A stretch of 33,911 nt of DNA. It comes from Halichondria panicea. Its lineage: Eukaryota; Porifera; Demospongiae; Suberitida; Halichondriidae. Below the pieces are notes generated by a model that saw only the letters and a list, made by a program, of their open reading frames with translations, was not told the origin of the DNA and made no database searches. Positions 1,893-33,911 of this stretch are shown one piece after another. The number at the start of each line of letters is the position of its first letter. Positions within the stretch are counted from its first letter, which is position 1. The DNA lies in NCBI RefSeq assembly GCF_963675165.1, contig NC_087389.1:6537621-6571531 (forward strand). Direction: 5' to 3'. Both the position numbers and the translations under genes were made by a program.

Positions 1893-3786
1893 ATGGTAGC
1901 TGGTATGAGTGTTAAGAGCGGCGAGCCACAAGGTGGCAACACATCATCAGCCAACAGGAAGATACCTACACAGACAAAGACTAAGGTACGCAGCACACAA
2001 CGTGTGATTGTACTCCGACCTCTGTACCCTGTACAGGCCCCAGTAGAAGCCTTGCAGATGGCGCGTATATTGGATGATAGTCGATATCCAGCGGACCTGA
2101 GTGACAAGATACGCTCTGTGCTAGCGATCGTACCACATCGCTCAGAGGAGGAGATATGTATAGCGTTACATGATACGGACTTTGACCCTGAGAAAGCTAT
2201 TTCAGTGTTACTGGACAATGACAATCACAGCAGTACAGGGGTGAGTGGGTGTGTGTGTGTGTGTGTGGAGCACCTAGGTGAGTGGGTGTGTGTGTGTGTG
2301 TGTGGAGCACAGGGGTGAGTGGGTGTGTGTGTTGTGTGGAGCACATAGGTGAGTGGGTGTGTGTGTTGTGTGAAGCACACGGGTGAATGCATGACTCAAC
2401 TGTGTGTGTGTGTGTGTGTAGTGGACAACCAGCGGAGGAGGTCGCAAAGGCAAGAAGAAGTCTACACTGAATGATGGTATTGATCTGATAGTAGCTCCTG
2501 GGGACACTAGAACACAAGGCAAGCGAAAGCAAGGAGGAACAAACAGAGCAGGTGTGTGTGTGTGCCTGTGACTAGGGTAGCAGGTATGTGTGTGTGCCTG
2601 TGACTAGGGTAGCAGGTATGTGTGTGTGCCTGTGACTAGGGTAGCAGGTGTGTGTGTGTGCCTGTGACTAGGGTAGCAGGTATGTGTGTGCCTGTGACTA
2701 GGGTAGCAGGTATGTGTGTGCCTGTGACTAGGGTAGCAGGTATGTGTGTGCCTGTGACTAGGGTAGCAGGTACATGTGTATGTGTGTGCCTGTGACTAGG
2801 GTAGCAGGTATGTGTGTGCCTGTGACTAGGGTAGCAGGTATGTGTGTGTGCCTGTGACTAGGGTAGCAGGTGTGTGTGTGCCTGTGACTAGGGTAGCAGG
2901 TGTGTGTGTGTGCCTGTGACTAGGGTAGCAGGTGTGTGTGTGTGCCTGTGACTAGGGTAGCAGGTATGTGTGTGCCTGTGACTAGGGTAGCAGGTGTGTG
3001 TGTGCCTGTGACTAGGGTAGCAGGTATGTGTGACTAGGGTAGCAGGTATGTGTGTGCCTGTGACTAGGGTAGGAGGTATGTGTGTGTGCCTGTGACTAGG
3101 GTAGCAGGTGTGTGTGTGTGCCTGTGACTAGGGTAGCAGGTGTGTGTGTGCCTGTGACTAGGGTAGCAGGTATGTGTGTGCCTGTGACTAGGGTAGCAGG
3201 TGTGTGTGTGCCTGTGACTAGGGTAGCAGGTATGTGTGACTAGGGTAGCAGGTATGTGTGTGCCTGTGACTAGGGTAGCAGGTGTGTGTGTGCCTGTGAC
3301 TAGGGTAGCAGGTGTGTGTGTGCCTGTGACTAGGGTAGCAGGTATGTGTGTGCCTGTGACTAGGGTAGCAGGTATGTGTGACTAGGGTAGCAGGTATGTG
3401 TGACTAGGGTAGCAGGTATGTGTGTGCCTGTGACTAGGGTAGGAACGTAACTACAAATATGCAGTGAATTTGAGTAGCTTGTTAGTGTTGCAATGTGCTC
3501 GATGTGACTGATCTCTTCCTGTGCAGCACCCACAGGGACTCGTGAGGGCTATGGTGGTGGTGTAAGTGTTGGGAGGGGGCGTGGCACTAGTGGACGTGGG
3601 CGTAGCAACAGCGCCCCTCGTAGAGATACAGGCAAAAGGAAGACTCCGACCACCTCCAGCAGCACCAGTGGTAGCACCAGCACAGTCAAGTGAGCTCCAC
3701 ACTGTAGCACACTGACACACCTCTAGATAACAATAACCACCTCTCTCTCAGGCCTTGTCACCCATCACACTATCCCCACTACCCCC

Positions 3787-3829
<43 letters not shown>

Positions 3830-5505
3830 AGTGATAGCCTAACCCTCACATGTGTGTGTTTAGTGATAGGCGGAGGGCACCTAAAGGAGAGAGACAAGCA
3901 CGGCACAGCACTAAGATATCACCTCCTACACCAGCGGCAACAGGAGGTAATGTGTGTGTGTGTTGATGACATCACATGACATGTCACACACAGATGAGCT
4001 GCTGTGGGATACTCTACCAGTGGAGAATAACAGAGGTCAAGAGGTCAGAGGTCAAGAGGTCAGAGTGGATGCAGAGGAATGGCCACCTTCATGGGAACAA
4101 GCAAACAAGGTGAACACTATAACAATAATACAGTGTATTACATGATGTCCGCCTCTTACAGCAGCCTGGAGTGTACTGGGAGGACACACCCACTTTACAA
4201 GATGAGGGGGCGGCACCTGACACGCCCCCAGTGTTCCCTGAGGCTATCCCCACCTCACAACAACAACCCCCTCCACTTAGCACACTCTCCGAGGTCACAC
4301 CCACACTGGCGATTGCCGATAGAGACAGTACTCACCCTCAGAGCAGAGAAGGGGGGAGGTGCGTGGGCGTGTGTGTGTGTGTGTGTTGTGATCATAGTAA
4401 TGATGTAGAGATGATGACAGTAAGAGACGTAAAGCACGAAGGATTGCACGGTCTCAGATACCAACCAAGCCAGTGGAGATGCCAGGGGGAGAGTCACTGG
4501 ACCTTCAGGTACTAGTACGCTGTCTGTCTGTGTGTGTGTGTGTCATGCTCTCTCCTGTTGCTCTAGTTTGGTAGGCTTGGTATTGACTTTGGTGGCTCTG
4601 AGCAGCAACAGCATCAGCATCCACCCACAGCAGTGCCCACCAACTATCCCAGCCACTCTACAGCAGTGCCCACCAACTATCCCAGCCACTCTACAGCAGT
4701 GCCCACCAGCTATGAGTCACTGCTCACTTACTCTGAAGTGCATAGGTAGGTATATAGGACTTTCTTCATTTCTTTGTGTGTGTGTTGTACACAGTCTTGT
4801 CTATTTGACCTCAAGTGTGGTACACTGTAAGTTTATGTTTTCTCTAATAAGGTTTGCAGTTGTAAGTTGTAACTGTGTGTGTAGACTTGCTTGAGGACCC
4901 TACACTAGCAACAGAGAATTGCCTAACAGCAAACCCACAATAATATTATATTACATGTACATGCATGTAGATAATAATTTCTTGCCTAAAAACCATAGGC
5001 TGTATAATTATAAAGATCTCTGAGAGTGGTTTAGTGGTTAGGGTGGTGGCTTCGTAGATCATATGATAGATAAGACGTGGGTTCGATTCCCCCTTGGGGG
5101 ACTTTTCTTCATTTCTTTAAAGTAATTTCCCTAACTTTTGAATGCATCATACTCCTGTCAAGTACATAATCAAGTTGGGGCGACCCAACTTTCCCTTTTT
5201 GGTACATAGCTTTTTTTTCTTCTCAGGTATTATTCATTTTGTAGAATCAGAAGTGGCCGAAATAACTAGGCTAAATATAATCAGTTTTGGCCGTGATTAT
5301 GTTCATATCTAACTTGTGGTTTTGCTGTTTGGCAATTCTCTGTTGCAAGTGCACTACAATCCACTGTTAGTGTCATACGTGTGTGTGTGTAGACTTGCTG
5401 AGGACCCTAGTGTGATCTGTGTGTGTGTGTGTGTAGACTTGATGAGGACCCTAGTGTGATCTGTGTGTGTGTGTGTGTGTAGACTTGCTGAGGACCCTAG
5501 TGTGA

Positions 5506-5539
<34 letters not shown>

Positions 5540-5603
5540 CTTGCTGAGGACCCTAGTGTAATCTGTGTGTGTGTGTGTAGACTTGCTGAGGACCCTAGTG
5601 TGA

Positions 5604-5683
<80 letters not shown>

Positions 5684-7809
5684 CTTGCTGAGGACCCTAG
5701 TGTGATCTGTGTGTGTGTGTGTGTAGACTTGCTGAGGACCCTAGTGTGATCTGTGTGTGTGTGTGTGTGTGTAGACTTGCTGAGGACCCTAGTGTGATCT
5801 GTGTGTGTGTGTGTAGACTTGCTGAGGACCCTGGTGTGATCTGTGTGTGTGTGTATGTGTGTGTGTGTAGACTTGCTGAGGACCCTAGTGTGATCTGTGT
5901 GTGTGTGTGTGTGTGTGTGTGTAGACTTGCTGAGGACCCTAGTGTGATCTGTGTGAGCAGCTCCACTAGTACTGGACAGTACAGACACTCAGAGCAGTCA
6001 CAAGTGGACACACCCGCTACTAGTCTGGAGGGACCTCCTGGACTAAAACATCCATCATCACATGATAGGAGCCTCGAGTCACATGATCAGCTATTAATGT
6101 CTTCCCAGGATCGTAGTGGAGAGTCACATGACCTCAGCCTTGAGTCACATGATCAGCGATTGCCGCTAAGTGCCCCTCTATCTCCTCAGAAGGAGAATAT
6201 CGAAGCCTCCACTTCTGAGGCAGCCAGCGTCTTACCAGAGCCAATAGAAATGCCCAGTCAGCAGATCACCTCTACAGTAAGTACTATAGTCTGTGTGTGG
6301 GTGGGTGTGTGTGTGTTCATCTCTGTCTTTGTTTCCTCCTCTTAGACTACGGGTTACTCTGGTAGTGAGCTGCTCATGTCTACAGCTCCCGCCCCCACAG
6401 TCACACCTTCCACTACACACAGCACAGCGGCTGGTGGGAAACCTGTGCCACCCAACATGATGTACCCCCACCTTATGCATCAATACCCAGCAGCCTTCAT
6501 GGTGAGAGCATTACACTTAATTAGAGAGTAATATGCTAATGTTCATTGAGAGATAATGATGTTTGCATTTCAGCCAATGTACCCGACGGCTGCTGGTAAC
6601 TATGGTGATGACCTCTCCCGCTACCAGGCCTCCGTCTCATTGGCTGCTTACTATCAGAGTGGCGGAGCTGACCCAGCGCTATCAGCAGCAGGAGGTACAC
6701 CACGAGACATGTACACAGCAGGAGGAGTGGGAGGGGACAAGTTCGGCAGAGGGGGGTCAGAGGTCAGTGTCACTATGAGTCAGTCATCAGTCGGCCAAGC
6801 CACTCAAGGTGAGTGGGCGTGTGTGTATTGTGCTGCTCCCTCATTTACGCATGATTCAGGAGCTCTTTGCTCAATGATAACTGAAGTTATAGGTACAACT
6901 GTTGTGCAGGAGTGGCTGGCAGTGGAGGGATGCAGCCTGCCTTCATGAACTACCCCAATATGTACCCCAGCTCAATGTTCTATCCGATGTACTTCTCTCC
7001 AGCAGCGGCGGCACATTCTGTAAGTTATTTCTCTTAATTAGAATATACCCTAATCCTCTCATTATCTCCAGATGCCCCCTAAACCAACCACTGCTGGCAC
7101 ATCTTTCCCGGGAAGTGGGAGCAGTTATCAAGGACAAGGGGGCGGGGCTAACTATAATTATGAGGAGTTGTCGTCATCACATGAATACTCCAAGATGTAT
7201 CCTGGTGTGGGGTCAAAGTCCACCAACCTCCCTAAAACCACAGCTGGAGAGATGGGTCTTGGTTACAAGCAGCAGCCACACTATGACAACAAGGGACCTG
7301 GTACAAGCAACTACCAACAGCAGCAGCAGCAAAGCTTTGGAGCCCAACAACAACAGCAGTACATGCAGTACATGCAAGCTGTGAGTGTCTGACATGCTTG
7401 CACGAATCACTACAAGTGCTAGTGCATTGCCCTGAATGTTATCATGTGACTGCGTGCACGCATGTCGAACCTCCTCTGGTGTACAAGTGTGGGCTATAAT
7501 TATTAGTGGGTGTACTTTTTTCTCAATCAGGTTTTTTTTGCTGAGTTTGAGAGCCCATAACTTGTGGCAGAAATGCTCGACCTTACAAGTGTGTCGACTG
7601 TATAGCTAGTGGTTGTGGTCGTATGCATGTGGCTGTACTATTGTTGGTTCATGTGTTGTTCTCTTGCTGTGTATGTACAGGTACCTGGAGGCATGCCTTT
7701 GCCTCCTATGCCAGTCATGCCTGGTGGGGGGGAGAGTGGGAGAAAGCACACAAGCAAGACTGCAGGCTATCAGAGTAACAACAGCTTCTGGGGAGGTCAA
7801 TCCTCCTAA
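1893..7809 (+). CDS. UBAP2: UBAP2/UBAP2L/Lingerer-family RNA-binding protein
   Basis: Fifteen exons keep frame: 1893-1985, 2037-2240, 2422-2551, 3527-3689, 3864-3946, 3994-4109, 4162-4358, 4421-4508, 4567-4745, 5925-6276, 6346-6501, 6574-6808, 6910-7019, 7072-7380, 7681-7809; about 847 aa. A UBA domain spans about residues 50-92 (DLSDKIRSVL, then EEEICIALHDTDFDPEKAI). A basic/RGG patch follows at about 157-170 (VGRGRGTSGRGRS). The UBAP2-specific block (DUF3697-type) at about 329-370 reads PTKPVEMPG then LDLQFGRLGIDFGG. The rest is low-complexity S/T/Q/P/Y-rich sequence (MYP, NMYPSSMFYPMY, Q-rich exon 14). The C-terminus has an aromatic NNSFWG ending like the YSWG tail of UBAP2L. Family members act in stress granules, translation and mRNA regulation. 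A second ATG at 1905 is in frame. Exon 9 holds 2.5 copies of an 11-residue repeat (TAVPTNYPSHS). Four introns are enlarged by repeats. Confidence 0.9.
2241..2421 (+). repeat. donor-bearing minisatellite filling UBAP2 intron 2
   Basis: The whole intron consists of roughly four 33-38 bp units followed by a (tg)n tract and the acceptor tgtgtag. Each unit starts gtgagtgggtgtg and ends ggagcac plus ctag/agg/atag, so AG|GTGAGT, identical to the true donor, is repeated at each boundary. Confidence 0.85.
2552..3444 (+). repeat. minisatellite in UBAP2 intron 3 (about 30 units of 21-34 bp)
   Basis: Units are (tg)n, then cctgtgactagggtagcag, then gtatgtgtg. The array begins directly at the exon 3 donor. 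Each unit contains agcag|gtatgtg, a copy of the real junction gagcag|gtgtgtg. Some units lack the cctg segment. The region from 3445 to the acceptor at 3526 is unique. Confidence 0.9.
3789..3827 (+). repeat. (TG)n microsatellite
   Basis: A simple dinucleotide run in UBAP2 intron 4. It is followed by two copies of gtttagtgatag; the second supplies the acceptor at 3863. Confidence 0.9.
4903..5351. mobile_element. TIR-bounded non-autonomous DNA element (about 449 bp)
   Basis: The arms 4903-4940 and 5314-5351 are inverted repeats of about 38 bp with a few mismatches; the matching core is gcaacagagaattgcc. The element has no ORF. It lies in UBAP2 intron 9 and splits the first unit of the acceptor-bearing array (gaggaccc on its left, the (tg)n run on its right), so it probably inserted after that array began. 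The target-site duplication is not clear; TA is possible if the right end extends to about 5367. A SINE-like unit sits inside it. Confidence 0.6.
5015..5132 (+). mobile_element. tRNA-derived SINE-like element, copy 1
   Basis: It contains a pol III A-box-like gtggtttagtgg (5026-5037) and a strong B box ggttcgattcc (5080-5090). The tail runs through gggggact to aagtaatttccct. The same head and tail occur on the minus strand at 15219-15308, showing a dispersed family. It does not fold into a complete tRNA with a convincing acceptor stem, so an intact tRNA gene is not called. Confidence 0.6.
5377..5924 (+). repeat. acceptor-plus-exon-start array in UBAP2 intron 9
   Basis: Ten intronic units precede the genuine exon 10 start at 5925. 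One older degenerate unit lies before the TIR element at 4873-4900. Each unit is (tg)n, tag, then acttgctgaggaccctag and tgtgatctgtg, so it duplicates the 3' splice site and about the first 31 nt of exon 10. Unit length varies with the (tg)n run; the longest run is about 5608-5680. Confidence 0.93.
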
Positions 7810-8998: not shown

Positions 8999-11794
8999 CC
9001 CCCGTCTGTCCGTTCGTCCCTCTGTCCCTTATCCGTGTGTGTGCAGGGGTGGCAAGTCTTCTATTCAGAAGGTTGTGTTCCACAAGCTCTCACCAAATGA
9101 GACACTATTTCTAGAGAGTACTACTAAAGTGGTCAAAGATGATGTCAGTAACAGCTCATTCGTTCAATTTCAGGTACACAAAACACTTCTCTATTGATAA
9201 TGATTGTATATGCTTGCCTGAATATATATAGATCTGGGATTTTCCTGGTCAGATCGACTTCTTTGACCCAGCGTATGATTCAGAGCACATATTTGGAGGC
9301 TGTGGAGCTCTCATCTTTGTCATTGATGCTCAGGTATAATGGTAGACCCCCTGGGTGGGTGTGGTGGACCCCCTGCATGGGTGGTCACACTAAGTTGTGT
9401 TATTCCTCTGTAGGATGAATACAGGAATGCACTGATTAGATTGCACCAAACAGTCACCAGAGCTTACCAAGTTAACCCAGCCATCAAGTTTGAGGTGTTT
9501 ATTCACAAAGTGGATGGTTTGGCAGATGAGCGAAAGATAGAAGCTCAGAGAGATATCCACCAACGTGCGACTGATGACTTGGCAGACGCTGGCTTGGATG
9601 GCATACATCTCAGCTTCTACCTCACTTCCATTTATGACCACTCCATTTTTGAGGTACCTACTTTAGATTATTATCAATGCATGTCCGTATTGTGTGTGTG
9701 TTGTGTGCAGGCCTCTAGTACTGTGTGTGTTGTGTGCAGGCCTCTAGTACTGTGTGTGTTGTGTGCAGGCCTCTAGTACTGTGTGTGTTGTGTGCAGGCC
9801 TCTAGTACTGTGTGTGTTGTGTGCAGGCCTCTAGTACTGTGTGTGTTGTGTGCAGGCCTCTAGTACTGTGTGTGTTGTGTGCAGGCCTCTAGTACTGTGT
9901 GTGTTGCGTGCAGGCCTCTAGTACTGTGTGTTGCGTGCAGGCCTCTAGTACTGTGTGTGTTGCGTGCAGGCCTCTAGTACTGTGTGTGTTGTGTGCAGGC
10001 CTCTAGTACTGTGTGTGTTGTGTGCAGGCCTCTAGTACTGTGTGTGTTGCGTGCAGGCCTCTAGTACTGTGTGTTGTGTGCAGGCCTCTAGTACTGTGTG
10101 TGTTGTGTGCAGGCCTCTAGTACTGTGTGTGTTGCGTGCAGGCCTCTAGTACTGTGTGTGTGCTGCGTGCAGGCCTCTAGTACTGTGTGTGTTGCATGCA
10201 GACCTCTAGTACTGTGTGTGTGCTGCGTGCAGGCCTCTAGTACTGTGTGTGTTGCATGCAGACCTCTAGTACTGTGTGTGTTGCGTGCAGGCCTCTAGTA
10301 CTGTGTGCAGGCCTCTAGTACTGTGTGTGTTGTGTGCAGGCCTCTAGTACTGTGTGTTGTGTGCAGGCCTCTAGTACTGTGTGTGTTGTGTGCAGGCCTC
10401 TAGTACTGTGTGTTGTGTGCAGGCCTCTAGTACTGTGTGTGTTGTGTGCAGGCCTCTAGTACTGTGTGTGTTGTGTGCAGGCCTCTAGTACTGTGTGTGT
10501 TGTGTGCAGGCCTCTAGTACTGTGTGTGTTGCGTGCAGGCCTCTAGTACTGTGTGTGTTGTGCAGGCCTCTAGTACTGTGTGTGTTGTGTGCAGGCCTCT
10601 AGTACTGTGTGTGTTGCGTGCAGGACTCTAGTACTGTGTGCAGGCCTCTAGTACTGTGTGTGTTGTGTGCAGGCCTCTAGTACTGTGTGTGTTGCGTGCA
10701 GGACTCTAGTACTGTGTGTTGTGTGCAGGCCTCTAGTACTGTGTGTTGCGTGCAGGACTCTAGTACTGTGTGCAGGCCTCTAGTACTGTGTGTGTTGTAT
10801 GCAGGCCTCTAGTACTGTGTGTGTTGCGTGCAGGCCTCTAGTACTGTGTGTGTTGTGCAGGCCTCTAGTGTAGTGTGTGTTGTATGCAGGCCTCTAGTAC
10901 TGTGTGTGTTGTGTGCAGGCCTCTAGTACTGTGTGTGTTGCGTGCAGGCCTCTAGTACTGTGTGTGTTGCGTGCAGGCCTCTATTACTGTGTGTGTTGCA
11001 GGCCTCTAATACTGTTTGTGTTGTATGCAGGCCTTTAGTCGAGTGGTTCAGAAGCTCATTCCTCAACTGCCGACTCTTGAGAATCTACTCAATATTCTGA
11101 TATCAGTAAGCCACCCTCTCTGCCTCTGCTTGTGTTGTGTTCAATAGTTTGTGTCTGTAGAACTCTGGTATTGAGAAAGCTTTCCTGTTTGACATGGTCA
11201 GCAAGATCTACATTGCCACTGACAGGTAATCCACACGTGACTGTGTGTGTGTGTTCATGTGGTTTTGTACAGTTCTCCAGTGGACATGCAGTCCTATGAG
11301 CTGTGCTGTGATATGATTGATGTGGTCATTGATGTCTCCTGTATATATGGGTAAGCCCTCACACCTCACACACACACACCCCACTCATCACACACACACA
11401 CACACACATCACACACACACGCACACACACACAGACTATCTGATGACGGTGAGGGTACTGCTTTTGATCAGCAGTCATCTTCCATTATTCGGCTCAACAA
11501 CGGCACTATTTTGTACCTAAGAGAGGTCAATAGATTCCTGTCCCTAGTGTGTCTACTAAGAGAAGATGTGTTTGAGAGACAAGGACTTATTGAGTACAAC
11601 TTCCATTGCTTTAGAGAGGCCATACAAGACGTGAGTGTGTCTACCCCCCACACACTGTTGAACCCCCCTACCACTGTTGAACCCCTCCACCACTATTGAC
11701 CCCACCCTCTTCTCTACAGGTGTTTGAGGTGCGACGGAAAGCTCTCTTGAGTCCGGATGAATCATCTACTGGGAATACAGACGATGGACACTAA
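8318..11794 (+). CDS. RRAGC: Ras-related GTP-binding protein C/D
   Basis: Coding exons: 8318-8320, 8431-8489, 8541-8624, 9047-9173, 9232-9333, 9414-9653, 11031-11105, 11161-11225, 11273-11350, 11435-11630, 11720-11794; 367 aa (human RagC about 399). Motifs: P-loop GLRRGGKS at 46-53, G3 DFPGQ at 94-98, G4 HKVD at 156-159. A C-terminal roadblock-type dimerisation half follows, with [19 protein letters not shown] and NFHCFREAI. It is the RagC/D partner of RagA/B on the lysosomal Ragulator, signalling amino-acid sufficiency to mTORC1. The only suitable start is an ATG forming the last three bases of the first exon: an in-frame TGA lies at 8249-8251 and the next Met is inside the P-loop region. 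Residue 50 is Gly where human RagC has Ser. Intron 3 (about 420 bp) and intron 6 (about 1.38 kb) are swollen by minisatellites. RagC and RagD cannot be separated here; this is probably the single pre-duplication gene. Confidence 0.95.
8361..8429 (+). repeat. (CA)n microsatellite ending at RagC/D exon 2 acceptor
   Basis: About 34 CA dinucleotides run straight into acacag|TCG, so the 3' splice site has no ordinary polypyrimidine tract. Confidence 0.92.
8641..9040 (+). repeat. minisatellite in RagC/D intron 3
   Basis: About 12 units of tcccttatccg (with g/t variants) separated by (tg)n runs of variable length. The units contain no AG, so unlike the neighbouring arrays this one does not copy the acceptor; the true acceptor gtgcag is at 9041-9046. 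Confidence 0.88.
9694..11030 (+). repeat. acceptor-bearing 29-bp minisatellite in RagC/D intron 6
   Basis: About 45 units of (tg)n, ttgtgtgcag, gcctctagtact. Each reproduces the 3' splice site gcag|gcct and the first nine bases of exon 7 (gcctttagt) with one mismatch. The last unit merges into the functional acceptor at 11030. Variants include gcgtgcag, gcaggact and shortened 18-27 bp units. Confidence 0.93.
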
Positions 11795-12157: not shown

Positions 12158-15100
12158 TCAATGTGTCGTAGCTAGCTCTGCAGTCCGTAACTTGTCCACA
12201 CACAACAAGTGCTGTTGCTGCAAGTTACTGAAGCCACACTGCAATTCCCTCTCTCTGCCTTCCAGAGCAACAACCAGTTGCTTGTACAGTCGCAACTCAC
12301 GAAGAACATAACCTGCACACACATAAGGGTGGGCTTATGTGCATACCTAGCACACATAAGGGTGGGCTTATGTGCATACCTAGCACACTAGCATGAACAC
12401 ACATAAGGGTGGGCTTATGTGCATACCTAGCACACACATGAACACATGCACATAAGGGTGGGCTTATGTGCATACCTAGCACACTAGCATGAACACACAT
12501 AAGGGTGGTATAATGATACCTACCTAGCCTTAGGCGTACAAAGTTGGTTTGTAGTTTCTCCTTTTTCAGACGCTCCTTTAGTCGTAGCAGTGAACTCTGA
12601 CCTCCTCCAGAAGTACTGTACACACATGAGAGTTAGATCACTCACTAAATGCGAGATACTAATATACCTGATATGATTGCCCAACACTTTCTTCCTAGCT
12701 CTGAGCAGGTTCACCTCTGCCATCAGTTGGGACAGAGAGTCTTCCTTCTCCTACAAACACAGGGAATGGTGTGGACATGTATAGCCTCCTTCACAAGGCC
12801 TCAACAAGTGCGGCCTGGAATTGAGGCTAGTACATACAATGATCATACTTGTATTTGAGCAGCTCTCTTGGTGTTGACAGTGTTTGTGAGGGACAGTCCC
12901 TCCAGTACTTGTACTTGGTCACTCTTGAACCTATCCACTTGACTCTTGACCACACCCACTGTCTCACGTAGATACACACAATCTGAGTCCAGTAATAATG
13001 TCACATGACCTAGCTCGAACTCAAGACTTGACACCTGCGGTTATATAATATAATTATAACAACAGTAACCATAGCAATGACAATTACTGTTTGTTTGGAG
13101 AGATTTAGTTCTGTTTCCATGGAGACGAGGCGTACACTATGCATCTCCCTTGACGACACCAATTGCCTTGTCTGATGTAACTCATTACGTAGTGACAGAA
13201 CGTGATTCTTCATGTCGTCCTTTTCTCTCTCCCATGTTTCTTTGAATGACCTTTGACCTTTGTCTAATGAAGTGTTTTCAGTGAGTAGTTGTTGTCGTAT
13301 GGTTGCTAGGGCTTGTTGTGACCCTAGTAACCGTGCCCCCTCTGTCCTCAACTGTGCACAGGTCACCTCTAGTCTAACAGTAGCAGCACGAGACTCGGAC
13401 AATCTCTGTTTCAAGTGAACTATCTCAGCCTGTAATATAATTAAGAGAGAGCAAGCTAACACACACACTGTTGGGGAGGGGGGGCACACACACACACTGT
13501 AGGGGGGGGTACACAGACACACTGTGGGGGGGGCACACACACACAGTGGGGGGGGGGCATACACACACAGTGGGGGGGGGGCACACACACACAGTACTGC
13601 TTACCTGTGCAGTGGAGAAGCGCCTCACGGAGGAAAGCCCTGACGAGCACATACTCAACTCACTACCAACCTGCAGTTATAATTATACAAGCTGTGAGTG
13701 CCTCTGAATCTTCACCTCACTTTAAATGTAAATATAAGTAGCTACAGTGTATATACACAGTGGGACCACACTATAGGCTCTGTACACCAGCTACAGTGTA
13801 TATACACAGTGGGACCACACTATAGGCTCTGTACACTAGCTACAGTGTATATACACAGTGGGACCACACTATAGGCTCTGTACACCAGCTACAGTGTATA
13901 TACACAGTGGGACCACACTATAGGCTCTGTACACTAGCTACAGTGTATATACACAGTGGGACCACACTATAGGCTCTGTACACTAGCTACAGTGCACACA
14001 GTGGGACCATACTATAGGCTCTGTACACTAGCTACAGTGCACACAGTGGGACCACACTATAGGCTTTGTACACTAGCTACAGTGTACACAGTGGGACCAC
14101 ACTATAGGCTCTGTACACTAGCTACAGTGGGACCACACTATAGGCTCTGTACACTAGCTACAGTGTACACAGTGGGACCACACTATAGGCTCTGTACACT
14201 AGCTACAGTGTACACAGTGGGACCACACTATAGGCTCTGTACACTAGCTACAGTGCACACAGTGAGACCACACTACAGGCTCTGTACACTAGCTACAGTG
14301 CACACAGTGGGACCACACTATAGGCTCTGTACACTAGCTACAGTGCACACAGTGGGACCACACTATAGGCTCTGTACACCAGCTACAGTACACACAGTGG
14401 GACCACACTATAGGCTCTGTACACTAGCTACAGTGCACACAGTGGGACCACACTATAGGCTCTGTACACCAGCTACAGTGCACACAGTGGGACCACACTA
14501 TAGGCTCTGTACACCCTTGCTTAGCATTTGGCTATCATGTCTAAGTACATGAAAAGTTCAACCATGACCATACACATTGTATGTTTCTTCATTAGTGGTC
14601 ATGGTTGACTGCACTTCAACTTCTGCCAGCCAATCTGAAATCCTAGTGTAGCAAGAGGACTCTTGTACATGGGTTAGGGTTGTACAACACAACCACATGT
14701 GGTACAAACCCTAACCTGATGAAACTTTACAACACATACAGTATGGAGGATTTCAGATTGGCTGGCAGAAGTTGAAGTGCAGTCAACCATGACCACTAAT
14801 GAAGAAACATACAATGTGTATGGTCATGGTTGAACTTTTCAACCAACCTGAAATCCTCCGTGTATATATACATGCCATGATCAAATGGTTTGTGCCAGTT
14901 ACCAGTGACTCTCTTGACATGTTCAGTAGATCTGTTTCCATGGCGATTGAGAGCTTATTTCTCTGGAGGTGTTTAATTTGAGCTGCCCTTTGTTCCAGTA
15001 GCGCCTTCATCTCGTTGCCAAGGGCAACACGACTATCCAGCTGGCATCTAGCGCTAACTATTGCCCCTTCTAAATCAGATACTTGCTCTGCAATTAGTCG

Positions 15101-28039: not shown

Positions 28040-30950
28040 ATTTGCTGGTTTTGCCTGCTATCTAAAAAAATTAGGCAAGCCCGTGTTTAAATAGTGTGCA
28101 ATATTTCATTTGCTGGTTTAGCCAGCTTCTGACGGGGAGCCTTGCACGCCCTAATCTAAAAAAAATTAGGCAAAAAGGGAGAGCAAATAGTGTGCAATAT
28201 TTCATTTGCTGGTTTAGCCAGCTTCTGACGGGGAGCCTTGCACGCCCTAATCTAAAAAAAATTAGGCAAAAAGGGAGAGCAAATAGTGTGCAATATTTCA
28301 TTTGCTGGTTTAGCCAGCTTCTGACGGGGAGCCTTGCACGCCCTAATCTAAAAAAAATTAGGCAAAAAGGGAGAGCAAATAGTGTGCAATATTTCATTTG
28401 CTGGTTTAGCCAGCTTCTGACGGGGAGCCTTGCACGCCCTAATCTAAAAAAATTAGGCAAAAAGGGAGAGCCCGTATTTAAATAGTGTGCAATATTTCAT
28501 TTGCTGGTTTAGCCAGCTTCTGACGGGGAGCCTTGCACGCCCTAATCTAAAAAAATTAGGCAAAAAGGGAGAGCCCGTATTTAAATAGTGTGCAATATTT
28601 CATTTGCTGGTTTAGCCAGCTTCTGACGGGGAGCCTTGCACGCCCTAATCTAAAAAAATTAGGCAAAAAGGGAGAGCCCGTATTTAAATAGTGTGCAATA
28701 TTTCATTTGCTGGTTTAGCCAGCTTCTGACGGGGAGCCTTGCACGCCCTAATCTAAAAAAAATTAGGCAAAAAGGGAGAGCAAATAGTGTGCAATATTTC
28801 ATTTGCTGGTTTAGCCAGCTTCTGACGGGGAGCCTTGCACGCCCTAATCTAAAAAAATTAGGCAAAAAGGGAGAGCCCGTATTTAAATAGTGTGCAATAT
28901 TTCATTTGCTGGTTTAGCCAGCTTCTGACGGGGAGCCTTGCACGCCCTAATCTAAAAAAAATTAGGCAAAAAGGGAGAGCAAATAGTGTGCAATATTTCA
29001 TTTGCTGGTTTAGCCAGCTTCTGACGGGGAGCCTTGCACGCCCTAATCTAAAAAAATTAGGCAAAAAGGGAGAGCCCGTATTTAAATAGTGTGCAATATT
29101 TCATTTGCTGGTTTAGCCAGCTTCTGACGGGGAGCCTTGCACGCCCTAATCTAAAAAAATTAGGCAAAAAGGGAGAGCCCGTATTTAAATAGTGTGCAAT
29201 ATTTCATTTGCTGGTTTAGCCAGCTTCTGACGGGGAGCCTTGCACGCCCTAATCTAAAAAAATTAGGCAAAAAGGGAGAGCCCGTATTTAAATAGTGTGC
29301 AATATTTCATTTGCTGGTTTAGCCAGCTTCTGACGGGGAGCCTTGCACGCCCTAATCTAAAAAAAATTAGGCAAAAAGGGAGAGCAAATAGTGTGCAATA
29401 TTTCATTTGCTGGTTTAGCCAGCTTCTGACGGGGAGCCTTGCACGCCCTAATCTAAAAAAATTAGGCAAAAAGGGAGAGCCCGTATTTAAATAGTGTGCA
29501 ATATTTCATTTGCTGGTTTAGCCAGCTTCTGACGGGGAGCCTTGCACGCCCTAATCTAAAAAAATTAGGCAAAAAGGGAGAGCCCGTATTTAAATAGTGT
29601 GCAATATTTCATTTGCTGGTTTAGCCAGCTTCTGACGGGGAGCCTTGCACGCCCTAATCTAAAAAAATTAGGCAAAAAGGGAGAGCCCGTATTTAAATAG
29701 TGTGCAATATTTCATTTGCTGGTTTAGCCAGCTTCTGACGGGGAGCCTTGCACGCCCTAATCTAAAAAAAATTAGGCAAAAAGGGAGAGCAAATAGTGTG
29801 CAATATTTCATTTGCTGGTTTAGCCAGCTTCTGACGGGGAGCCTTGCACGCCCTAATCTAAAAAAATTAGGCAAAAAGGGAGAGCCCGTATTTAAATAGT
29901 GTGCAATATTTCATTTGCTGGTTTAGCCAGCTTCTGACGGGGAGCCTTGCACGCCCTAATCTAAAAAAATTAGGCAAAAAGGGAGAGCCCGTATTTAAAT
30001 AGTGTGCAATATTTCATTTGCTGGTTTAGCCAGCTTCTGACGGGGAGCCTTGCACGCCCTAATCTAAAAAAATTAGGCAAAAAGGGAGAGCCCGTATTTA
30101 AATAGTGTGCAATATTTCATTTGCTGGTTTAGCCAGCTTCTGACGGGGAGCCTTGCACGCCCTAATCTAAAAAAAATTAGGCAAAAAGGGAGAGCAAATA
30201 GTGTGCAATATTTCATTTGCTGGTTTAGCCAGCTTCTGACGGGGAGCCTTGCACGCCCTAATCTAAAAAAATTAGGCAAAAAGGGAGAGCCCGTATTTAA
30301 ATAGTGTGCAATATTTCATTTGCTGGTTTAGCCAGCTTCTGACGGGGAGCCTTGCACGCCCTAATCTAAAAAAATTAGGCAAAAAGGGAGAGCCCGTATT
30401 TAAATAGTGTGCAATATTTCATTTGCTGGTTTAGCCAGCTTCTGACGGGGAGCCTTGCACGCCCTAATCTAAAAAAATTAGGCAAAAAGGGAGAGCCCGT
30501 ATTTAAATAGTGTGCAATATTTCATTTGCTGGTTTAGCCAGCTTCTGACGGGGAGCCTTGCACGCCCTAATCTAAAAAAAATTAGGCAAAAAGGGAGAGC
30601 AAATAGTGTGCAATATTTCATTTGCTGGTTTAGCCAGCTTCTGACGGGGAGCCTTGCACGCCCTAATCTAAAAAAATTAGGCAAAAAGGGAGAGCCCGTA
30701 TTTAAATAGTGTGCAATATTTCATTTGCTGGTTTAGCCAGCTTCTGACGGGGAGCCTTGCACGCCCTAATCTAAAAAAATTAGGCAAAAAGGGAGAGCCC
30801 GTATTTAAATAGTGTGCAATATTTCATTTGCTGGTTTAGCCAGCTTCTGACGGGGAGCCTTGCACGCCCTAATCTAAAAAAATTAGGCAAAAAGGGAGAG
30901 CAAATAGTGTGCAATATTTCATTTGCTGGTTAAGCCAGCTTCTGACAGCG
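28040..30950. repeat. satellite D: 96/103-bp monomers in a 405-bp higher-order repeat
   Basis: Twenty-nine monomers, with agtgtgcaatatttc starts from 28093 to 30906. Two forms exist: a short one of 96 bp (eight A's before ttagg, no cccgtattt) and a long one of 103 bp (seven A's, with cccgtattt). The order is S S S L L L S L S, then L L L S repeated four times (29,000-30,700), then L L S. The 405-bp block is therefore three long plus one short. Each monomer has two inverted pairs: gctgg/ccagc and cctaat/attagg. Open frames through it on both strands are artefacts of the repeat. Confidence 0.95.
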
Positions 30951-31357
30951 AGCCTTACAATAAATTAGTGGTTTTGCTTAGTGCATTGTTTGTTTTAGTG
31001 AAGAAAAAAGTGCAGTAAAACATGAAAAGAAAAAAGTGGTTTTGCTTATAAGCTTAAGTAGTGCTTGATGATGAAAAGACAAAAGTAGGTTAGCTTTATT
31101 AGTGCAGTATTTGCTGGTTTAAGTGAAAAAAAAGTTGTTTTGTTAATAGTGGTTTGCTGAAAAAAAAAGTGAAGTCAGTCAAAGTTGTTTTGCAATTATG
31201 AAAACAAGTGCAGCAAGGTAGTTTAGCTTATTAAAAGTTTGTATTTTAAGTAAAGTAAAAGTAGTACCTCAGTGCAGTAGAGGAAGCCAAAGGAAGCCAA
31301 AGTAGATATGCTATGGAATTTAAAAACCATAAGTACTGAAATATTGCCATCATCTGC
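30951..31357. other. A-rich degenerate spacer
   Basis: Irregular repeats of gtggttttgctta, agtgcag and gaaaaaaaagtg words. It looks like a decayed satellite related in vocabulary to array D (tttgctggttt recurs at about 31110). No gene is seen. Confidence 0.6.
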
Positions 31358-31412
31358 TATAAAAGAGAGTGAGCAAAAAGGGAGGAGGGTGGGCGTGGCT
31401 GAGGGTGGGAAA
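31358..31412 (+). promoter_or_regulatory. candidate telomere-directed promoter (TATA box plus GC/GT-rich block)
   Basis: TATAAAAG at 31358-31365 matches the TATA consensus. Some 16-45 bases downstream lies a G-rich block (ggaggagggtgggcgtggct, then gagggtggg) resembling Sp/KLF sites and a quadruplex motif. Transcription to the right would cross the 31-bp array and yield UUAGGG RNA, the polarity of TERRA. This is inference from motif and position. Confidence 0.3.
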
Positions 31413-31442
31413 GTTGGCTAGAGTGTGCGGTAAAGTACTTGA

Positions 31443-32803
31443 GCTAGAGTTGTGGTTAAGTACTCTAACAACAGCTAGAGTTGTGGTTAAGTACTCTAAC
31501 AACAGCTAGAGTTGTGGTTAAGTACTCTAACAACAGCTAGAGTTGTGGTTAAGTACTCTAACAACAGCTAGAGTTGTGGTTAAGTACTCTAACAACAGCT
31601 AGAGTTGTGGTTAAGTACTCTAACAACAGCTAGAGTTGTGGTTAAGTACTCTAACAACAGCTAGAGTTGTGGTTAAGTACTCTAACAACAGCTAGAGTTG
31701 TGGTTAAGTACTCTAACAACAGCTAGAGTTGTGGTTAAGTACTCTAACAACAGCTAGAGTTGTGGTTAAGTACTCTAACAACAGCTAGAGTTGTGGTTAA
31801 GTACTCTAACAACAGCTAGAGTTGTGGTTAAGTACTCTAACAACAGCTAGAGTTGTGGTTAAGTACTCTAACAACAGCTAGAGTTGTGGTTAAGTACTCT
31901 AACAACAGCTAGAGTTGTGGTTAAGTACTCTAACAACAGCTAGAGTTGTGGTTAAGTACTCTAACAACAGCTAGAGTTGTGGTTAAGTACTCTAACAACA
32001 GCTAGAGTTGTGGTTAAGTACTCTAACAACAGCTAGAGTTGTGGTTAAGTACTCTAACAACAGCTAGAGTTGTGGTTAAGTACTCTAACAACAGCTAGAG
32101 TTGTGGTTAAGTACTCTAACAACAGCTAGAGTTGTGGTTAAGTACTCTAACAACAGCTAGAGTTGTGGTTAAGTACTCTAACAACAGCTAGAGTTGTGGT
32201 TAAGTACTCTAACAACAGCTAGAGTTGTGGTTAAGTACTCTAACAACAGCTAGAGTTGTGGTTAAGTACTCTAACAACAGCTAGAGTTGTGGTTAAGTAC
32301 TCTAACAACAGCTAGAGTTGTGGTTAAGTACTCTAACAACAGCTAGAGTTGTGGTTAAGTACTCTAACAACAGCTAGAGTTGTGGTTAAGTACTCTAACA
32401 ACAGCTAGAGTTGTGGTTAAGTACTCTAACAACAGCTAGAGTTGTGGTTAAGTACTCTAACAACAGCTAGAGTTGTGGTTAAGTACTCTAACAACAGCTA
32501 GAGTTGTGGTTAAGTACTCTAACAACAGCTAGAGTTGTGGTTAAGTACTCTAACAACAGCTAGAGTTGTGGTTAAGTACTCTAACAACAGCTAGAGTTGT
32601 GGTTAAGTACTCTAACAACAGCTAGAGTTGTGGTTAAGTACTCTAACAACAGCTAGAGTTGTGGTTAAGTACTCTAACAACAGCTAGAGTTGTGGTTAAG
32701 TACTCTAACAACAGCTAGAGTTGTGGTTAAGTACTCTAACAACAGCTAGAGTTGTGGTTAAGTACTCTAACAACAGCTAGAGTTGTGGTTAAGTACTCTA
32801 ACA
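31443..32803. repeat. satellite E: 31-bp unit, about 44 copies
   Basis: Unit gctagagttgtggttaagta then ctctaacaaca. By eye all copies are identical except the first degenerate one near 31418-31442. tagag/ctcta and gttgt/acaac form inverted pairs. The array breaks inside a unit after ctctaaca and passes straight into gggttaggg. Confidence 0.96.
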
Positions 32804-33911
32804 GGGTTAGGGTTAGGGTTAGGGTTAGGGTTAGGGTTAGGGTTAGGGTTAGGGTTAGGGTTAGGGTAAGGGTTAGGGTTAGGGCAAGGGTTAGGGTTAG
32901 GGTTAGGGTTAGGGTTAGGGTTAGGGTTAGGGTTAGGGTTAGGGTTAGGGTTAGGGTTAGGGTTAGGGTTAGGGTTAGGGTTAGGGTTAGGGTTAGGGTT
33001 AGGGTTAGGGTTAGGGTTAGGGTTAGGGTTAGGGTTAGGGTTAGGGTTAGGGTTAGGGTTAGGGTTAGGGTTAGGGTTAGGGTTAGGGTTAGGGTTAGGG
33101 TTAGGGTTAGGGTTAGGGTTAGGGTTAGGGTTAGGGTTAGGGTTAGGGTTAGGGTTAGGGTTAGGGTTAGGGTTAGGGTTAGGGTTAGGGTTAGGGTTAG
33201 GGTTAGGGTTAGGGTTAGGGTTAGGGTTAGGGTTAGGGTTAGGGTTAGGGTTAGGGTTAGGGTTAGGGTTAGGGTTAGGGTTAGGGTTAGGGTTAGGGTT
33301 AGGGTTAGGGTTAGGGTTAGGGTTAGGGTTAGGGTTAGGGTTAGGGTTAGGGTTAGGGTTAGGGTTAGGGTTAGGGTTAGGGTTAGGGTTAGGGTTAGGG
33401 TTAGGGTTAGGGTTAGGGTTAGGGTTAGGGTTAGGGTTAGGGTTAGGGTTAGGGTTAGGGTTAGGGTTAGGGTTAGGGTTAGGGTTAGGGTTAGGGTTAG
33501 GGTTAGGGTTAGGGTTAGGGTTAGGGTTAGGGTTAGGGTTAGGGTTAGGGTTAGGGTTAGGGTTAGGGTTAGGGTTAGGGTTAGGGTTAGGGTTAGGGTT
33601 AGGGTTAGGGTTAGGGTTAGGGTTAGGGTTAGGGTTAGGGTTAGGGTTAGGGTTAGGGTTAGGGTTAGGGTTAGGGTTAGGGTTAGGGTTAGGGTTAGGG
33701 TTAGGGTTAGGGTTAGGGTTAGGGTTAGGGTTAGGGTTAGGGTTAGGGTTAGGGTTAGGGTTAGGGTTAGGGTTAGGGTTAGGGTTAGGGTTAGGGTTAG
33801 GGTTAGGGTTAGGGTTAGGGTTAGGGTTAGGGTTAGGGTTAGGGTTAGGGTTAGGGTTAGGGTTAGGGTTAGGGTTAGGGTTAGGGTTAGGGTTAGGGTT
33901 AGGGTTAGGGT
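32804..33911 (+). repeat. telomere, (TTAGGG)n, about 184 repeats
   Basis: A 1108-bp uninterrupted TTAGGG array, G-strand 5' to 3' toward the window end. Only two variant repeats were seen, TAAGGG at 32867-32872 and CAAGGG at 32885-32890, both within 90 bp of the proximal edge. Confidence 0.98.

Follow-up and report, generated by a model that had tools for sequence, protein, structure and literature searches.

The final 33.9 kb of contig C13 of the sponge Halichondria panicea (the window, 33,911 nt, closing in telomere repeats; the genome is 131 Mb in 39 contigs, 17 of them large) carries a UBAP2-like (UBAP2/lingerer-like) gene with a tandem array at the end of its ninth intron. We think that this array is probably a minisatellite of the type that has been called a mirage in lancelets, grown across the boundary between intron 9 and exon 10, with one acceptor at the edge of the exon serving for most splicing. 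A sequence-only reading of this DNA had proposed tandem growth across the intron-exon boundary, and the identity between array and boundary, in a gene with an open 851-aa model and a UBAP2-Lig domain, bears that proposal out. The array is a real and recurring structure of an already described kind, found here outside the lancelets.

The ten full units have exon-like starts at 5393, 5437, 5483, 5539, 5581, 5683, 5727, 5775, 5817 and 5871, with unit lengths, in order, of 44, 46, 56, 42, 102, 44, 48, 42, 54 and 54 nt. Their 25-nt cores are highly uniform: in eleven copies, including the one in exon 10, there are 3 substitutions in 275 nt relative to the consensus, eight copies being identical and three differing by one base. 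The earlier statement that about 31 nt of every unit are identical to the start of exon 10 thus holds as a match or near-match. The variation in unit length is seated in the TG tracts, the longest of which is 75 nt, and length polymorphism of the array is likely on this account. An 18-nt probe laid over the 3' boundary of intron 9 recurs within the intron at 18/18, whereas 200 dinucleotide shuffles gave a mean best match of 13.2 and none reached 18, which rules out a chance resemblance of the copies to the exon start. Exon 10 has TGTGTG at its positions 26-31, directly after the 25-nt core, and intron 9 itself ends in (TG)n-TAG. The array is therefore a tandem repeat whose unit spans both the boundary and its splice signal, as is required of a mirage, the boundary in UBAP2 being set by reading frame and splice score. 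AGGT, the motif that marks intron gain by tandem duplication, is absent from the core of the unit. In one assembly, a genome search placed exon 10 at a single site; the 31-nt unit had no exact match in bacterial and archaeal genome contigs, as expected.

The host gene seems otherwise intact, with 15 exons (1893-7809) that give the open 851-aa model and a Pfam UBAP2-Lig domain (PF12478) at residues 344-371. Intron 9 spans 4746-5924 and, at 1179 nt, lies amid mostly short introns. Within exon 9, at 4627-4713, the coding sequence repeats a 33-bp unit in frame (TAVPTNYPSHS, 2.6 copies).

Ten clean units and one decayed unit had been counted from the sequence. The ten are present, and the supposedly decayed copy at 4885 is an eleventh unit whose two halves rejoin at TA around a dispersed element of 465 bp, so that we rejected plain decay. 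The element is flanked by TA at 4901-4902 and 5368-5369, with one additional T ahead of the right TA, and the flanks fused at TA give ACTTGCTTGAGGACCCTAGTGTCATACG, to be compared with ACTTGCTGAGGACCCTAGTGTGATCTG. When 4915-5370 was used as a query against the genome, 40 of 281 first-look candidates were scored, among them the query's own copy. Identity in the longer matches is 72-100%, and matching inverted ends are seen in many copies. Ends were read in three copies, of which one (L027) starts with TACAGTGG at both ends, another (L028) has this sequence at one end, opposite a close variant of it, and the third (L026) has diverged ends. In the UBAP2 copy the left inverted-repeat end seems to be about 15 nt short. 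Because the element sits inside unit 1, the array seems to have begun before the insertion. A tRNA-like look of 5025-5105 was noticed by eye only; ARAGORN, under the bacterial code, detected no tRNA genes in the window.

Features of the UBAP2-like and RagC-like genes discussed in the text (window coordinates; a slash marks the splice junction)
Feature	Position	Strand	Basis or remarks
UBAP2-like exon 9	4567..4745	+	phase 0 in, 3' end ...GTGCATAG; gene model and PF12478
Intron 9 5' splice site, GTAGGT	4746..4751	+	gene model
Unit 1, left half: (TG)n-TAG plus ACTTGCTTGAGGACCCTA	4874..4902	+	sequence comparison
Dispersed inverted-repeat element, like a miniature inverted-repeat transposable element, 465 bp, within unit 1	4903..5367	+	genome search, read ends
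Unit 1, right half (TAGTGTCATACG), passing into unit 2 (its TG tract and TAG)	5368..5392	+	sequence comparison
Ten complete tandem units, each a 25-nt core with (TG)n-TAG after it	5393..5924	+	sequence comparison
Four units nearest the exon, lengths divisible by 3, no stops	5727..5924	+	splicing in would add blocks of the RLAEDPSVIC(VC)n type
Likeliest real intron 9 3' splice site, AG	5923..5924	+	frame; matrix score 8.3
UBAP2-like exon 10	5925..6276	+	nt 1-31 are repeated in the array; gene model
Weaker in-frame alternative acceptor, CAG	5959..5960	+	matrix score 3.2; if real, array wholly intronic
UBAP2 intron 2, repeated 5' splice site with 6 exon nt (ACAGGG/gtgagtggg)	2235..2402	+	5 donor-like sites, real one counted; 17/18, 0/200 shuffles
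UBAP2 intron 3, unit of about 30 nt with GCAG/GT	2545..3442	+	29 donor-like sites, real one counted; match 15/18
UBAP2 intron 4/exon 5, two-copy duplication of gtgtgtttag/TGATAG	3822..3871	+	17/18, 0/200 shuffles
RagC-like array, repeated 3' splice site and exon start (tgtgtgcag/GCCTCTAGTAC)	9693..11041	+	47 acceptor-like sites, counting the real one (11031)

Intron 9 is not the only boundary with such copies. We compared the 18-nt junction with the adjoining intron, with 200 shuffles each, at all 48 boundaries of the 24 introns in two gene models, those of UBAP2 and of a RagC-like gene (in the latter, introns 4-8 are the ones with homology support on both sides). At four boundaries there is a junction copy that none of the 200 shuffles reaches, namely the 5' boundary of UBAP2 intron 2 and the 3' boundaries of UBAP2 introns 4 and 9 and RagC intron 6. 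The donor of UBAP2 intron 3 is not significant by this test, its match being equalled by 21 of 200 shuffles owing to TG content, and the donor of intron 11 (12/18, p 0.04) is about what is expected by chance over 48 tests. At the 5' boundary of intron 9 the best match is 11/18, which is at chance; a donor repeat like that of human factor VII (F7) is thus lacking there and present in UBAP2 intron 2. In the RagC-like gene, exons 4-9 align ungapped to human RagC, and this alignment places the array boundary. Introns of 47-110 nt make up 17 of the 24 in the two models; among the seven longer ones, five have boundary repeats (that of intron 3 being judged by eye), RagC intron 3 has an array that does not straddle a boundary, and UBAP2 intron 14 has no array listed by Tandem Repeats Finder.

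Boundary-straddling arrays with homology support were also found at two loci near the ends of other contigs, in an RNMT-like gene (20 acceptor-like copies, locus L010) and in an ankyrin gene (10 copies in units that are all 36 nt, locus L014). Three further arrays straddle a boundary by eye (L018 5283-5510, L011 6133-6419 and L011 6533-6651), while several others, in genes that look by eye like OGDH, transportin, ADAM and hnRNP genes, end short of the boundary by the same kind of inspection. Gene parts were assigned for the arrays named, and we draw no rate of straddling from them. In the two L011 arrays, both of which carry AGGT, an acceptor is joined straight to a donor (tgcag/gtgagc and gcag/gtaagg), like repeated introns with no exon between them. 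The L018 array, with four copies of a unit of about 57 nt, looks like an almost entire intron repeated between two exon-like stretches.

The presence of a TG tract both in the exon and at the end of the intron suggests a simple mechanism, as exchange between the two tracts would give exactly the intron 9 unit. In such a scheme, slippage or unequal exchange between the exon TGTGTG and the intron (TG)n tract, at the joint that is seen in the sequence, would copy the intervening 25 nt together with the acceptor. After every round the edge would still have an intact acceptor with its exon, so that growth may be cheap and tolerated. The inverted-repeat element would later have split the outermost unit, and the near identity of the copies nearer the exon is as might be expected of continuing turnover. 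Judging from the lancelet and factor VII precedents, the spliceosome most likely takes the single exon-edge acceptor and uses the four in-frame copies to a minor extent at most. We favor this account because the array units match the boundary, because the joint falls in a TG run common to exon and intron, and because a dispersed element interrupts unit 1 at a TA. The recurrence of the pattern at the 3' side in RagC, at the 5' side of UBAP2 intron 2 and the 3' side of intron 4, and in the RNMT-like and ankyrin genes also speaks for it, as do the intactness of the host genes (the 851-aa model of UBAP2 and the ungapped RagC exons 4-9) and the precedents in which splicing is reported to be regular (PMC3087553, PMC3902484, PMC6627357).

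Several considerations weigh against this account, and some of them lend strength to other explanations. The choice of splice site is read from the genome sequence, not from transcripts. The ankyrin joint, examined by eye, has no TG tract, and therefore other breakpoints also occur and TG exchange does not cover every array. We scored acceptors with a matrix trained on 21 sites of the window, the site at 5925 being deliberately excluded. Scores of 7.8-11.9 for the ten full upstream copies, and of 6.3 for unit 1, are about as strong as the 8.3 of the real acceptor, so that strength neither singles out the real acceptor nor forbids upstream use. In UBAP2, moreover, the 31 nt appear to be exonic on the grounds of frame and splice score, with no protein relative to fix the boundary, and a second in-frame acceptor is the CAG at 5959-5960. 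Were that CAG the real acceptor, the array would be purely intronic and the repeated 31 nt never exonic. This we think improbable: the CAG does outscore 6 of the 21 known sites, and Pfam, the one place searched for this, gave no relative that shares the protein stretch, but the TAG at 5922-5924 precedes the CAG and scores well above it (three other nearby AGs score below 0), UBAP2 introns 2 and 4 close in TAG acceptors of the (TG)n type, and straddling of a true exon edge is backed by homology in the RagC, RNMT and ankyrin genes. An artefact of assembly or collapse in a TG-rich region is the least credible explanation of all. Long TG tracts are error-prone, and one mirage was seemingly misassembled in a draft genome (PMC3087553), but the UBAP2 array has three units with distinct substitutions, differing TG lengths and an element inside it, and arrays like it occur in other genes and on other contigs. 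With 39 contigs and telomere repeats at the contig end, an assembly error looks unlikely, as far as one assembly can tell.

The array could also be a source of splice variation, in which several acceptors are used, one to four RLAEDPSVIC(VC)n blocks are added in frame, the length of UBAP2 differs from one transcript or individual to another, and selection keeps the proximal units in frame. The last five upstream units had been described as in frame and free of stops, but we find four upstream acceptors of that sort (5727, 5775, 5817 and 5871), five being reached only if the real acceptor is counted, and six of the ten upstream acceptors are out of frame. That each of the four proximal units is stop-free and has a length divisible by 3 has a chance of 0.012 if lengths are random modulo 3, and that six of ten intron 9 units are multiples of 3 has a tail probability of 0.077, both tests having been picked after the data were seen. 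The strong scores of the ten full copies are in keeping with splice variation, as are the open and in-frame state of all nine upstream acceptors in the ankyrin array and the report, from a study of human segmental duplications, of an alternative transcript in 66% of the intron modifications by boundary repeats (PMC2812944), which also counts against our preferred account. On the other hand, the number of upstream acceptors that are in frame and open is 0 of 46 in RagC (15 are in frame) and 6 of 19 in RNMT, the ankyrin units, all of one length, amount to a single event, and the lancelet Adh and TnC mirages were reported to be without aberrant mRNAs (PMC3902484). Selection on the reading frame was set aside, the 0.012 being suggestive but post hoc and the pattern not common to RagC and RNMT; the RagC array moreover indicates that such arrays need no coding role to persist. 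Intron length complicates the choice further. In short introns alternative sites tend to pair across the intron and in long introns across the exon, as stated in PMC9225289, and since intron 9 is long among mostly short introns this rule leaves the choice of acceptor unsettled; with 17 of 24 introns so short, pairing of the sites closest across the intron could favor upstream acceptors, a further point against regular use of the exon-edge site. Overall, the addition of protein blocks through upstream acceptors is possible, but we judge it less likely than use of a single exon-edge acceptor, and the full set of claims about splice variation strikes us as unlikely.

The closest known systems are the lancelet mirages, minisatellite-like duplications of intron-exon boundaries that differ in length between haplotypes. 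Like the UBAP2 array, those in Adh3, the globins BflGb6 and BflGb9, TnC and PGBD5 are tandem repeats over an intron-exon boundary, 5' or 3', in which splice signals are repeated; their outer units escape homogenisation, and RT-PCR (reverse transcription followed by PCR) suggested regular splicing, although the authors allow for alternative transcripts from the repeated splice signals (PMC3087553 and PMC3902484). In contrast to these mirages, the UBAP2 units are built on (TG)n acceptors, an element interrupts one of them, several boundaries are affected in one 10-kb stretch, and UBAP2 is known here from genome sequence alone. The genome in question is also one of 131 Mb and not that of a lancelet; lancelet genomes are several times larger. 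In human factor VII, intron 7 has 37-bp donor repeats that start at the exon boundary, and normally only the most upstream, exon-proximal donor is used (PMC6627357); F7 thus repeats a donor where UBAP2 intron 9 repeats an acceptor, and UBAP2 introns 2 and 3 are closer to it. A duplication over a boundary produced a new intron in potato RdRp (PMC4974935), and boundary repeats account for 27 intron modifications in human segmental duplications (PMC2812944). In both, as in UBAP2, the duplicated stretch crosses the boundary with its splice signals, but unlike potato RdRp, the UBAP2 gene is readable without a new intron, and its ten or more repeats lengthen an existing one. A literature search of open-licence papers found no report of boundary repeats called mirages outside lancelets, and nothing on point in the sponge and subtelomere literature; in an ascidian paper the word occurs once, in the title of an unrelated reference, and the abstract of a Caenorhabditis elegans paper on minisatellites near alternative splicing does not describe boundary repeats.

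With 10 to 47 near-identical acceptors per intron, these intact-looking genes are natural competition tests of 3' splice-site choice, in which the first AG past the branch point, the site closest across the intron and the site closest to the exon would be set against one another. RagC is the sharpest case, as only the last of its 47 acceptor-like copies keeps the conserved frame open. A transcript joining exon 9 to ACTTGCTGAGG would show use of the 5925 junction, contrary to a purely intronic array. If our account is true at the RNA level, it would show introns lengthening and new splice sites arising through tandem growth, beyond the lancelets that gave such repeats their name.

In the stretches sampled, minisatellites are more abundant near contig ends. 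We sought 20 stretches at 15-25 kb from contig starts and obtained 18, two contigs being too short; of these, one that was all N and one from a 28-kb contig were dropped, leaving 16 for comparison with five interior stretches. The median number of minisatellite bases per 10 kb is 982 in the near-end loci and 311 in the interior ones (two-sided p 0.003, with gene density and GC unmatched and a small interior sample), and under one filter there are 64 arrays in the 16 near-end loci and 7 in the five interior loci. Of the contig starts, that of C1 was checked, and C1 has telomere repeats at both ends among the matches listed. It may be that genes near chromosome ends in this genome regularly mutate by tandem growth over splice sites, that such growth is a main cause of long introns, that the spliceosome skips up to 46 near-identical acceptors in favor of the one at the exon edge, and that some in-frame copies, as in UBAP2 and the ankyrin gene, leak into protein; we offer this wider proposal tentatively and regard it as rather doubtful in its entirety.

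Satellites were also seen near the contig ends themselves. A 45-bp satellite is common to 13755-14514 of the window, near the right end of C13, and to L002 6827-7452, near the left end of C1 on the opposite strand, where its core occurs 11 times, hinting at exchange between chromosome ends. From 28078 to 33911 the window passes from a 103-bp satellite (28.6 copies) to a 31-bp satellite (43.9 copies, 100% match) and then into the telomere repeats at the contig end.

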